Assembly (NCBI GenBank): GCA_027491435.1
Contig: JAOZFG010000004.1
Location: forward strand, 1-64,000
DNA: 64,000 bases
From: Thermoproteota archaeon
GTDB taxonomy: Archaea; Korarchaeota; Korarchaeia; Korarchaeales; Korarchaeaceae
Direction: 5' to 3'
Numbering within the stretch: the stretch's first letter is position 1; every line of letters starts with the position of its first letter. Below are positions 13,620 through 17,029 of this stretch, one piece after another. The translations under genes and the position numbers were made by a program. The notes below the pieces were generated by a model. The model was not told the DNA's origin and ran no database searches. It saw only the letters and a program-made list of their open reading frames with translations.

Positions 13620-14171
13620 ATGGGCCTAGAGGGAACCATTCTATTAGTGGGAGCGCCCGCTTCAGGCAAGACGACCTTATGTATGGAGCTGTCCCGTAAA
13701 CTGGGCTGCAAGTGCGTTTCCGTTAGTGAACTGGCTAGAAGAGAGGGTCTAATCTTAGAATACGATGATATGAGGGACACTTGGGTTCTGGATGTGGAGC
13801 GCGTCCGTGATAGGATAAAGGAGCTCTTATCTGAGGATAGGTGTCTCGTAGTGGAAACTATAGACCCTTCGGCAGTCCCCGGCCCTCACGTTGTGGGGAT
13901 AGCCGTCAGGTGTCCGCCTAGAAAGTTAAAGAGGAGGCTGGAGTCCAGGGGTTATAAAGACGTGAAGGTCTGGGAAAACCTGGAATACGAGGCTGTGGAC
14001 GGCCCCCTATACGATTTGCTCAGAGTGATGGATCTGGACAAGGTAATTGAGGTTAACGGATGTTCCGAGGACTTACGAGGGGAAATAGAGTACGTGCTAA
14101 ATAAGATGAGGTATGAGGGAGAGTTCGAGAAGAGGTTCAATTGGACCGACGAGTTCATGGGGATGCTCTAA
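13620..14171 (+). CDS. Adenylate kinase AK6/Fap7-type NTPase
   Basis: A 183-residue P-loop kinase. Walker A is GAPASGKT at residues 11-18, followed by VSVSELARREGLILEYDDMRDTWV, the AK6/Fap7 hallmark. A lid region (ESRGYKDVKVWENLEYE) is also present. In eukaryotes and archaea this family works with uS11 in late small-subunit assembly and has adenylate kinase and ATPase activity. An RBS-like GGGTGAG precedes the ATG. Its stop overlaps the end of the convergent HerA gene by 4 nt. Confidence 0.88.
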   Translation: MGLEGTILLVGAPASGKTTLCMELSRKLGCKCVSVSELARREGLILEYDDMRDTWVLDVERVRDRIKELLSEDRCLVVETIDPSAVPGPHVVGIAVRCPPRKLKRRLESRGYKDVKVWENLEYEAVDGPLYDLLRVMDLDKVIEVNGCSEDLRGEIEYVLNKMRYEGEFEKRFNWTDEFMGML

Positions 14172-15829
14172 CAGCTGAACAGATAGGAGGCGTTCCTCGC
14201 GTAACGGTCTAGGGACTCTGGCTCTAACACCGATTCATCAACGGGCACTATCCTAGCTTTATCCACCCTACCAGTTGATGATATCAAGACCTCCCCCTCT
14301 CTGAGCTTACTTATCTCCTCCAGCAGATCTTTAGACTCAATCAGGAACTTCAATTCCCTCAAGTCCTTTGAGGAGGACATCCTGTGTAAGACTTTAATGC
14401 CTGTGTTTCTCAGGACTCCAGGCGATACTTCGCTAGGCGCCTGCGTCACGACAATCGTTGCCAACCCGAATTTCCTCATCTCCGATAATATTCTATCTGT
14501 AGCGGTCAGTCCAGTGGAGTCCCTATAGCTGGGGAGTACTTTTTCGCTTTCCTCAAACACAACGACTAACCTGGGGTATTTAGAGTGACCCTTACTGAGG
14601 TAAGCGTCCCTCAACCTTTTCAACAGGAAATGGACGAACAGCTGCCTTATCTTGTCGCTCTTAAGGTGACCGAGCTCTATGACCGTTGGAACCATCAACT
14701 CCTCGACGCAGACGTTATCACATGCCAGGTACTTGAAGTCGTCGCTCATCACCACCGGCGTAAGCTTTCTGAGCAGGGAGGCCTTACTTTCCCTCTCCGG
14801 TTGTGACTCCTCCTTATAAGATTCTATCTGTTTAACCAGATCCCTCAAGTTAACTGAACGCCGCTCCCGTAAATTCATCAGGGATTTGGACAGTATGTAA
14901 AATTGAGAGGGAGTTAGCTCTAGAACGTCTGAGAGCATCTCCGACATCAAGTAAACGTCCCCCATCTCCATATCCCCGAGCCTAGACAAGGGGTTAACGC
15001 ACGGGAGGTCGCCCTCTCCCAAGATAACTCCGCCGAGGGAGGCTATAAATCCCCTATACTCCCAATGGAAGTCTAGAACGATGAACGGTATACCCCATAA
15101 CCACAACTCCCAAAGAATTCTTTTAACAGTAGTGGTTTTACCGGAGCCTGTCTGCCCCATTATGGCCGTGTGCTTCGTCATCTCCGCTAAGTCAATCCTC
15201 ACTGGTCTACCTGATGGAGAGACGCCAAGGGTTAGGAAGGGAGGATCTACCTTGCTAACTGGGGATAACTTGACTTCCTTAAAGGAGACTCCAGTTTTAG
15301 GAATCGAATACAGGGATCTCATTATGGAGGTCACTACATCTCTATTGAGCTCCAACTCCTCGAACTTCACACCTGACACGCTAGATATTGCAGACAATCC
15401 AGCCCTGAGAAGGTCGACCCCCCCTTCCCTATAAGGAGCCCATATGAACCCGGCATATGCGCTATCGTCGGAGGAAAGCGCTGTTCTCGGAAGGCTAACC
15501 GCTAATAAGGAGATTCCAACTCCCATGTTCCTGGCCACCTCCTCTATCAAGTCAAATGGGAGGCTTTCCTTGCTCGCCTCCTTTAGGGTGAAGGGGAGCA
15601 CGAGAATCTCCCTGCCCAACCCAAGCTTAACAAGATGTGCTGGTCCCTCTCGGTGACCTTTACCCGGCCTCCTGCGTGAAATTTTCAAGATCAGAGGCAA
15701 CGATAGAGACGCTAGTACAATCGGGTAATTACGATAAACAAATTCTAGAAGGCTTCCCCATCTCTTATAAATTAGAATGCCAGTTAGCAGGAGGAGAAGG
15801 GCTAAAACGAGGTAATCATCCCTCTTCAA
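14168..15829 (-). CDS. Membrane-anchored HerA/FtsK-type ATPase
   Basis: The protein has 553 residues. Two hydrophobic segments (about 7-21 and 36-50) precede a basic linker and a HerA/VirB4-like motor with Walker A GQTGSGKTTT starting at residue 225 and Walker B-like LVVVFEESEK. Other typical motor segments are FIVLDFHWEYRG and ATIVVTQAPSEVSPGVLRNTG. Soluble HerA works with NurA, Mre11 and Rad50 in DNA end resection; none of those genes is near. The membrane anchor suggests DNA or protein pumping at the membrane. TTG 15829 lies 14 nt inside the upstream small gene. Confidence 0.85.
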   Translation of the reverse strand: MKRDDYLVLALLLLLTGILIYKRWGSLLEFVYRNYPIVLASLSLPLILKISRRRPGKGHREGPAHLVKLGLGREILVLPFTLKEASKESLPFDLIEEVARNMGVGISLLAVSLPRTALSSDDSAYAGFIWAPYREGGVDLLRAGLSAISSVSGVKFEELELNRDVVTSIMRSLYSIPKTGVSFKEVKLSPVSKVDPPFLTLGVSPSGRPVRIDLAEMTKHTAIMGQTGSGKTTTVKRILWELWLWGIPFIVLDFHWEYRGFIASLGGVILGEGDLPCVNPLSRLGDMEMGDVYLMSEMLSDVLELTPSQFYILSKSLMNLRERRSVNLRDLVKQIESYKEESQPERESKASLLRKLTPVVMSDDFKYLACDNVCVEELMVPTVIELGHLKSDKIRQLFVHFLLKRLRDAYLSKGHSKYPRLVVVFEESEKVLPSYRDSTGLTATDRILSEMRKFGLATIVVTQAPSEVSPGVLRNTGIKVLHRMSSSKDLRELKFLIESKDLLEEISKLREGEVLISSTGRVDKARIVPVDESVLEPESLDRYARNASYLFSC

Positions 15830-15962
15830 GGCAAATCCTCCTCATTGAAAGAACTTCTTCCTTTAACATGTCAACTTCCTTGGACAGCTCATCTAGTTTG
15901 AAGAAAATGTAAGTTATCTGATTGGCTAAGACCTCCACCTCGAACTTAACGTCCTTCCTCAC
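15816..15962 (-). CDS. 48-residue coiled-coil protein upstream of membrane HerA
   Basis: Starting at GTG 15962, after a GAGGTGA ribosome-binding site that also contains the preceding gene's stop, a 48-codon frame runs to TGA at 15818-15816. The predicted product is charged and heptad-like (FFKLDELSKEVDMLKEEVL), suggesting one coiled coil. It lies between a TFB-like gene (5-nt gap) and the HerA gene (14-nt overlap). The tight spacing, good ribosome site and full coverage of a gap in a dense operon support it as real. No homologous family is recognised. Confidence 0.72.
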   Translation of the reverse strand: MRKDVKFEVEVLANQITYIFFKLDELSKEVDMLKEEVLSMRRICLEEG

Positions 15963-15966
15963 GGTG

Positions 15967-16626
15967 TCACCTCAGTAGGCCAACTATTTTGGCTAGAGAG
16001 GCTCGGCTTACCCCTATTGAATCGGATACAATTTTCTGGGTCACTAGCCTAAGCCCCAGGGACTGGGCGGCTAAGTAGACTAGAGCTCCTGATACTATGA
16101 CGGGACTCCTTCCCATAAGCTCTTTAATCCTCCCCGACTTAATCCTTAAGAGCTTCCTGGACTTCACCCTAATTCTATCTAGAATAAGGTGGCTGGGCAT
16201 CTTCAGATCAGATATTGCCTTGAGGAACTCATCAGATCTACCTAACTTCCAAATGACGTAATTCAGGTAACCCTCCCAGGGTATCGGGGCCCTTATCCCC
16301 AACACAGATTTTATCTCACCTATAGCAGCCACTATCCCTCCAGGCGAGACTTTCCCACTTAAAGCGCTGGAAACATCAGAAATAGAGACTGGAATTCCTA
16401 GATCTCTGCTGACCATAACGACGCTGGCGGCAGCTATGGAAAGACTGCTCTCTCTACCGCTTTTAGACTTATAAGCTAGGATGAGCTCCCTAGCCGAGAT
16501 AAACACGCTTTCAGGTAAATTTAACCTGTCCACTAAGGTCTCCACTGTGCTTTCCCCCTTAAATTTGGGTCTCCTGAGCGGCCAATGGTACTCCTTCATT
16601 TCATAAGTTACCGCTAACTCCGACAT
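15967..16626 (-). CDS. TFB-like cyclin-fold protein without zinc ribbon
   Basis: A 219-residue protein containing two TFIIB-type cyclin repeats. Repeat 1 (about 33-112) has LNLPESVFISARELI, SIAAASVVMVSRDLGIPVSISDVS; repeat 2 (about 140-218) has MGRSPVIVSGALVYLAAQSLGLRLVTQKIVSDSIGVSRASL. It lacks the N-terminal zinc ribbon (no cysteine pairs) and most of the reader region of a true TFB, such as the one at 59087. It may be a minimal or specialised initiation factor, or a DNA-binding adaptor for the HerA motor in the same operon; both are inference. The start is ATG 16626. Confidence 0.75.
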   Translation of the reverse strand: MSELAVTYEMKEYHWPLRRPKFKGESTVETLVDRLNLPESVFISARELILAYKSKSGRESSLSIAAASVVMVSRDLGIPVSISDVSSALSGKVSPGGIVAAIGEIKSVLGIRAPIPWEGYLNYVIWKLGRSDEFLKAISDLKMPSHLILDRIRVKSRKLLRIKSGRIKELMGRSPVIVSGALVYLAAQSLGLRLVTQKIVSDSIGVSRASLAKIVGLLR

Positions 16627-16696
16627 TTTCCCCGAATTAGCGCGCTATATGAATAAAAATAGTATTTCTTACACGCCAGTTAAATAAAACTAATAA

Positions 16697-17029
16697 TTAA
16701 CTAATTCTCCTAACTACTACGTAAACTTCGTCTCCATCGGAGAACTCATCGCAGCCCTCTACAGTCATCCTCAACCACAATCCGTGCATAGAAACCTCTA
16801 AACGACCTTCATCGCACCTGTAGACCACCCCTTTCATCACTATATCTCCATCACCTTCCTCTTCAGACACCACGACCTCAAAGCTACGCCACCCAGACAG
16901 GTCTACCAGACCTCTGGGCAACTCTAGGGACATTTCCCTACCGTCGGCCTCGGCGCTTAACACGTCCACGTTAAACAAAGGGTCTTCTTTAACGGCCTTA
17001 ACGTCCCAAATCTCCTTCAAAACTTTCAC
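16697..17029 (-). CDS. rpoG: DNA-directed RNA polymerase subunit Rpo8 (RPB8 orthologue)
   Basis: A 110-residue protein that lines up with eukaryotic RPB8 along its length. EIWDVKAV matches the RPB8 N-terminal strand (DIFDVKDI), MKGVVYRCDEG matches MYGKVYRIEGD, and EVSMHGLWLRMTVEG matches YVSYGGLLMRLQGD. The end GDEVYVVVRR matches SRVYLLMKK. Archaeal Rpo8 is reported from Crenarchaeota and Korarchaeota. It is somewhat shorter than RPB8, as archaeal versions are. ATG 17029 starts it; a 70-bp A/T-rich gap separates it from the TFB-like gene. Confidence 0.8.
   Translation of the reverse strand: MKVLKEIWDVKAVKEDPLFNVDVLSAEADGREMSLELPRGLVDLSGWRSFEVVVSEEEGDGDIVMKGVVYRCDEGRLEVSMHGLWLRMTVEGCDEFSDGDEVYVVVRRIS

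Follow-up and report, generated by a model that had tools for sequence, protein, structure and literature searches.

A TFB paralog and a CedD-like membrane ATPase form a conserved gene group beside rpo8 in Korarchaeia

In Sulfolobales, CedD was described in 2025 as a DNA-import ATPase encoded by SiRe_1715 (PMC11868833), and SiRe_1717 encodes Tfb3 (PMC10470591), which coregulates the Ced, Ups and HerA operons (PMC9905601). Parts of a wider linkage were known beforehand: Koonin et al. reported that rpoG of a korarchaeote adjoins a TFB gene (PMC2234397), and Makarova et al. described an Rpb8-TFIIB (arCOG05559)-T4P ATPase operon in Thermoproteales (PMC4858521). In the available portions of the literature found, no paper unites rpo8, a TFB paralog, a pilus module and CedD as one locus, and the korarchaeal CedD-like ATPase considered here is not reported.

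This ATPase is encoded in a window of 64,000 nucleotides, which is the whole stretch of korarchaeal DNA that was analysed. Three genes, named T, C and H in the following, were found on the minus strand at the coordinates that an initial annotation of the sequence had assigned to them (Table 1). The 14-nt overlap of C and H was likewise recovered, while the gap between T and C measured 4 nt and not 5 nt. Shine-Dalgarno-like sequences are located ahead of the starts of T, C and H, with AGGAGG before the TTG start of H. The conserved gene upstream of T, which encodes Rpo8 (R), had been overlooked.

Table 1. Features of the T-C-H locus and of related genes in the window.
Feature	Position	Strand	Description
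AAA_18 (adenylate-kinase-like) gene	13620..14171	+	Pfam AAA_18 5.3e-20; convergent; synteny anchor outside the operon
H	14168..15829	-	CedD/HerA/VirB4-type ATPase, 553 aa
Walker A (P-loop GQTGSGKTTT) of H, residues 225-234	15128..15157	-	invariant across alignment A3
Pair of hydrophobic helices at the N-terminus of H, residues 3-33 and 35-51	15677..15823	-	secondary structure of the model
C	15816..15962	-	48-aa coiled-coil-like protein, conserved core NQIxYLFFKLDE
C-terminal helix-turn-helix of T, residues ~196-219	15970..16041	-	profile columns 173-243; helices in the model
T	15967..16626	-	TFB-like, 219 aa, two cyclin repeats, without zinc ribbon, B-reader and linker
T-C-H promoter region	16627..16696	-	TATA-like TTTTATTTAA and block AAGAAA..ATTAATATT; 14 korarchaeal upstream regions aligned
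R	16697..17029	-	RNA polymerase subunit Rpo8/RpoG, 110 aa; adjoins T upstream, same strand
Canonical TFB of the same genome	59192..60070	+	ORF as picked; true start possibly further upstream

Co-occurrence of the genes in related genomes had been proposed as a check of the annotation, and in 24 of 26 Korarchaeia genomes, which belong to three families (f1, f2 and G025 as a deep member of f3), T and H were found side by side. In both exceptions (G004 and G010) the contig ends inside H, and the contiguity is complete among the testable genomes (24/24). C sits between T and H genus-wide, and diverged homologs are present in g5 and f2; four loci (L051, L052, L053 and L055) have no separate C and a direct overlap of T and H. 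The dN/dS values of C, which range from 0.06 to 0.2, show purifying selection, as for T.

The assignment of T as a TFB-like protein was confirmed by a TFIIB repeat match (E = 1.2e-7) in the absence of a ribbon match, and its predicted structure consists of two cyclin folds of five helices each, which match the cores of TFIIB/TFB. Its description as ribbon-less holds for the T of the window and for some lineages, but not for most relatives, which encode the N-terminal zinc ribbon within the same gene. A significant ribbon match was obtained for 13 of the 23 aligned T members, and the ribbon state changes about four times on the tree: it was lost in the window lineage, in G019 and in two branches, G009-G012 and G016/G018/G020. 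About 20 residues separate the ribbon from the first cyclin repeat in the ribbon-bearing relatives, and the B-reader/B-linker is absent from all T members. The helix-turn-helix of the second repeat is the BRE-recognition element of TFBs. This element is retained among T members, and the corresponding columns align with canonical TFBs as well as with the TFBs of T4P loci.

Over its full length, T aligns with TFB paralogs located by rpo8 or pilus genes in other Thermoproteota (E = 1.2e-33). The alignment with TFB3 of Sulfolobaceae covers the ribbon only and TFB3 is without the helix-turn-helix that T keeps; support for T as a TFB3 ortholog does not extend beyond the ribbon. A reading of T as an ordinary TFB whose ribbon would lie in another gene was rejected, because no ribbon remnant is present upstream of T, the ribbon of the relatives lies inside T, and the genome contains a separate full TFB. 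The latter, with repeats scoring 87 and 75 bits, and T are the only TFIIB matches in the genome. A second TFB-like paralog was observed less than 2 kb from a T2SSE (pilus) ATPase in G020 (L064:7713-8636) and in G016 (L065:7763-8386), where the copy carries in-frame stops.

H has a DUF87 match (1.4e-17), and its best family match is the CedD model NF053655 (E = 8.2e-48), although its score of 163.3 bits is below the curated cut-off of 600 bits. The two N-terminal membrane segments that had been noticed earlier were recovered as predicted helices before the ATPase domain, and a hydrophobic N-terminus is present in every member of the H alignment (A3). H thus has the layout of CedD, in which N-terminal membrane helices are followed by a C-terminal HerA/VirB4-type ATPase. 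The predicted fold of H matches both HerA (4d2i) and VirB4 (4ag6); the best E-value was obtained with Sulfolobus HerA 4d2i and the best superposition with the VirB4 ATPase domain (TM 0.70, rmsd 4.8). In an ATPase tree of 74 rows, in which some deep korarchaeal rows are unstable, H groups with CedD and the CedD-like proteins; this placement is moderately supported (SH-aLRT 86) and separates H from CedB, from canonical HerA and from most of the remaining HerA-like rows.

H is closest to CedD, and a canonical NurA-HerA-Mre11-Rad50 operon of the same genome is located away from H on contig C2. The Pfam HAS-barrel, which is present in the canonical HerA of the genome, was not found in H, and the identification of H with the canonical HerA-NurA repair motor was rejected on these grounds. 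The reported absence of NurA, Mre11 and Rad50 among the neighbours of the H locus was correct. CedB was not found in 11 Korarchaeia genomes, where every match of the CedB model was H itself (E = 1e-8 to 1e-18). No pilus genes are located at the korarchaeal T-C-H locus, and in the Korarchaeia genomes searched pilus-type ATPases occur only elsewhere. A contig scan with a P-loop pattern derived from the CedD alignment (A4) was discarded, since mostly unrelated ATPases were returned. Elsewhere in the window genome, an intein-splicing domain is matched by a HerA-like ATPase (L071:5128-7650, G000:C17) whose neighbour is a second NurA-domain gene.

Rpo8 precedes T in every testable Korarchaeia genome except G024. 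Searches with the Rpo8 profile (A2) gave eukaryotic Rpb8 (5e-14) and archaeal Rpo8 (5.5e-9), with nearly the whole profile covered, and Pfam RpbG is matched by 17 of the 19 members of the Rpo8 alignment. The eukaryotic match of this korarchaeal profile is the better of the two. The gap between Rpo8 and T contains a promoter that is kept in 14 genomes and consists of a BRE-like TGAAA, a TATA-like TTTTATTTA and the block AAGAAA..ATTAATATT; the BRE-like TGAAA is present in the relatives, and the window copy has lost the GAAA. Conservation of this promoter indicates that T-C-H are probably transcribed as a unit of their own. The block AAGAAA..ATTAATATT follows the TATA box of T at a distance of about 19 nt (window positions 16627-16720 and relatives) and is palindromic (AAATATTAATATTT) in several relatives. 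It may be an operator or a start-site element.

For comparison, 44 loci outside Korarchaeota, 40 of them around CedD-family matches in other Thermoproteota and four from the Rpo8 search, were analysed by local profile search within 8 kb. Rpo8 and/or a TFB paralog was detected at this distance from the CedD-like gene in 29 of the 44 loci; as a rough chance expectation, a 1.5-Mb genome with two or three TFB genes would have one of them at no more than 8 kb from any particular gene in about 3% of cases. In all ten Sulfolobaceae loci a TFB paralog with a ribbon occupies the TFB3 position at 1.7-5.5 kb from CedD, and in nine of them Rpo8 is located within 7 kb of CedD. In L157, a Sulfolobaceae locus that was checked, CedD and the TFB paralog are separated by a thermosome gene; the large ORFs beside the CedD-like genes in L157, L160 and L161, considered as secretion ATPases, proved to be thermosomes. 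The CedD-like gene is directly preceded by Rpo8 in f28, in three f54 loci and in f62. In G027, which belongs to another class of the phylum, the next gene downstream of Rpo8 encodes a CedD-like ATPase, without an intervening TFB (L169:4499-6813).

A further group of loci (f118, f120, f128, f145, f153 and f158), termed T4P-type, encodes on one strand and in this order a TFB paralog, a T2SSE-type ATPase, which was confirmed with Pfam where loci were scanned, membrane proteins and the CedD-like protein. Most of these loci have a gene for a one-helix pilin-like protein before the CedD-like gene, and some encode a small coiled-coil protein. An AAA_18 gene also flanks the CedD-like gene in L239, and similar ORFs are present in L226, L231, L232, L236 and L238. 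The arrangement of T-C-H does not stand alone: many Thermoproteota likewise carry TFB genes linked to rpo8 or to CedD, and such linkages have in part been published (PMC2234397 and PMC4858521).

Among the described systems, CedD (NF053655) resembles H in its membrane helices, its alpha/beta N-terminal domain, its C-terminal HerA/VirB4-type ATPase and the position of its gene near Rpo8 and a TFB paralog. It differs in that H stays below the family cut-off and in that the CedB partner was not found in the Korarchaeia searched. TFB3 (SiRe_1717), the DNA-damage regulator of Sulfolobales, is like T a TFB paralog that has diverged, lacks the B-reader and is encoded close to CedD and Rpo8, but it has kept the ribbon and lost the C-terminal helix-turn-helix (PMC2246294), whereas the reverse is true for T of the window. 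The Thermoproteales operon (PMC4858521) likewise combines rpo8, a TFB homolog and an ATPase of the FtsK-HerA superfamily; it encodes a secretion ATPase and a membrane protein, whereas the korarchaeal locus encodes a CedD/VirB4-like ATPase and a coiled-coil protein. The codirectional rpoG-TFB pair of the korarchaeote is probably the same locus as Rpo8-T, and the text available for PMC2234397 is silent on the coiled-coil and HerA/CedD-like genes downstream, on the losses of the ribbon and on conservation across the class.

Gene order, protein families, conservation and promoter of T-C-H are direct observations. With somewhat better than even confidence, T-C-H is regarded as a korarchaeal, reduced version of an old thermoproteotal Rpo8/TFB/CedD DNA-exchange locus beside rpo8. 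This assignment is favoured by the best curated match of H and its position in the tree, by the missing HAS-barrel together with a canonical HerA operon elsewhere, by the frequency of Rpo8/TFB at CedD-like loci including all those of Sulfolobaceae and the gene order of the T4P-type loci, by the end-to-end alignment of T with the TFBs of T4P loci, and by the published identities of SiRe_1715 and SiRe_1717. Against it stand the low score of H and the only moderately supported branch joining it with CedD, the lack of CedB in the 11 genomes searched and of pilus genes at the korarchaeal locus, and the restriction of the T/TFB3 alignment to the ribbon, with TFB3 being without the helix-turn-helix of T. 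Homology and linkage point to T as probably a regulator and to H as probably a DNA-moving ATPase at the membrane. Of the three functions guessed initially, which also included chromosome segregation and transcription at the membrane, DNA transfer is the best, H being closest to CedD.

As a mechanism we infer that T-C-H would be expressed from its own promoter and that T, as a diverged TFB in which the helix-turn-helix of the second repeat is intact, would bind promoter DNA, probably with TBP. By analogy with TFB3 in Sulfolobales, T could tune how strongly T-C-H, and perhaps further exchange genes, are transcribed. In ribbon-bearing lineages direct recruitment of RNA polymerase by T is conceivable; where the ribbon is lost, as in the window, T would act via promoter binding or competition. 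H would be a hexameric CedD/VirB4-like ATPase that is anchored by its two N-terminal helices and moves DNA, possibly as import, across or at the cytoplasmic membrane, and C is a probable oligomerisation partner of H or T at the membrane face.

The same gene neighbourhood could also be inherited synteny of Rpo8, Lsm, the TFB paralog, the CedD-like ATPase, the AAA_18 kinase and the thermosome with no common function, T and H doing unrelated jobs. Housekeeping genes for Lsm, archaeosine transglycosylase and the thermosome do recur at these loci, which is consistent with such anchoring; T, C and H, however, overlap or abut, have a common promoter and are contiguous in all testable Korarchaeia genomes, and the T4P-type loci keep their set from TFB to the pilin-like and CedD-like proteins on one strand, so that mere synteny appears unlikely. 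It is quite unlikely that H serves DNA repair or chromosome segregation as a HerA-type motor brought to the membrane. The DUF87 domain and the best E-value among the fold matches would agree with such a motor, but H is without HAS-barrel and NurA neighbour, the canonical operon is located elsewhere, VirB4 superposes better, and the CedD model is the best family match.

The initial annotation had further envisaged T as a structural adaptor that binds DNA and passes it through C to the membrane pump H. C is indeed located between T and H and overlaps H, and T of the window has the DNA-binding helix-turn-helix without the RNA-polymerase-binding ribbon. The ribbon is nevertheless kept by most relatives, pointing to work with RNA polymerase, and T and H overlap directly in the four loci without a separate C; such an adaptor is considered very unlikely. 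An operon of a regulator and a motor accounts for the facts with fewer assumptions than a physical T-C-H adaptor complex. Only a very slim chance is given to T being a promoter-binding factor tethered via C to a membrane DNA translocase, by which DNA exchange at the membrane would be directly coupled to transcription by RNA polymerase, whose subunit Rpo8 is encoded by the adjoining gene.

The reading of T-C-H as a reduced DNA-exchange locus extends the linkage of a CedD-type motor with a TFB paralog from Thermoproteota to Korarchaeia. The combined loci suggest one ancestral DNA-exchange locus that united a type IV pilus-like module and CedD with rpo8 and a TFB paralog, and of which Sulfolobales, with TFB3, Ced and Ups, and Korarchaeia would retain different parts. 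Such an ancestry would offer an evolutionary reason for the regulation of DNA exchange by a TFB paralog in Sulfolobales, and it names the genes to test.
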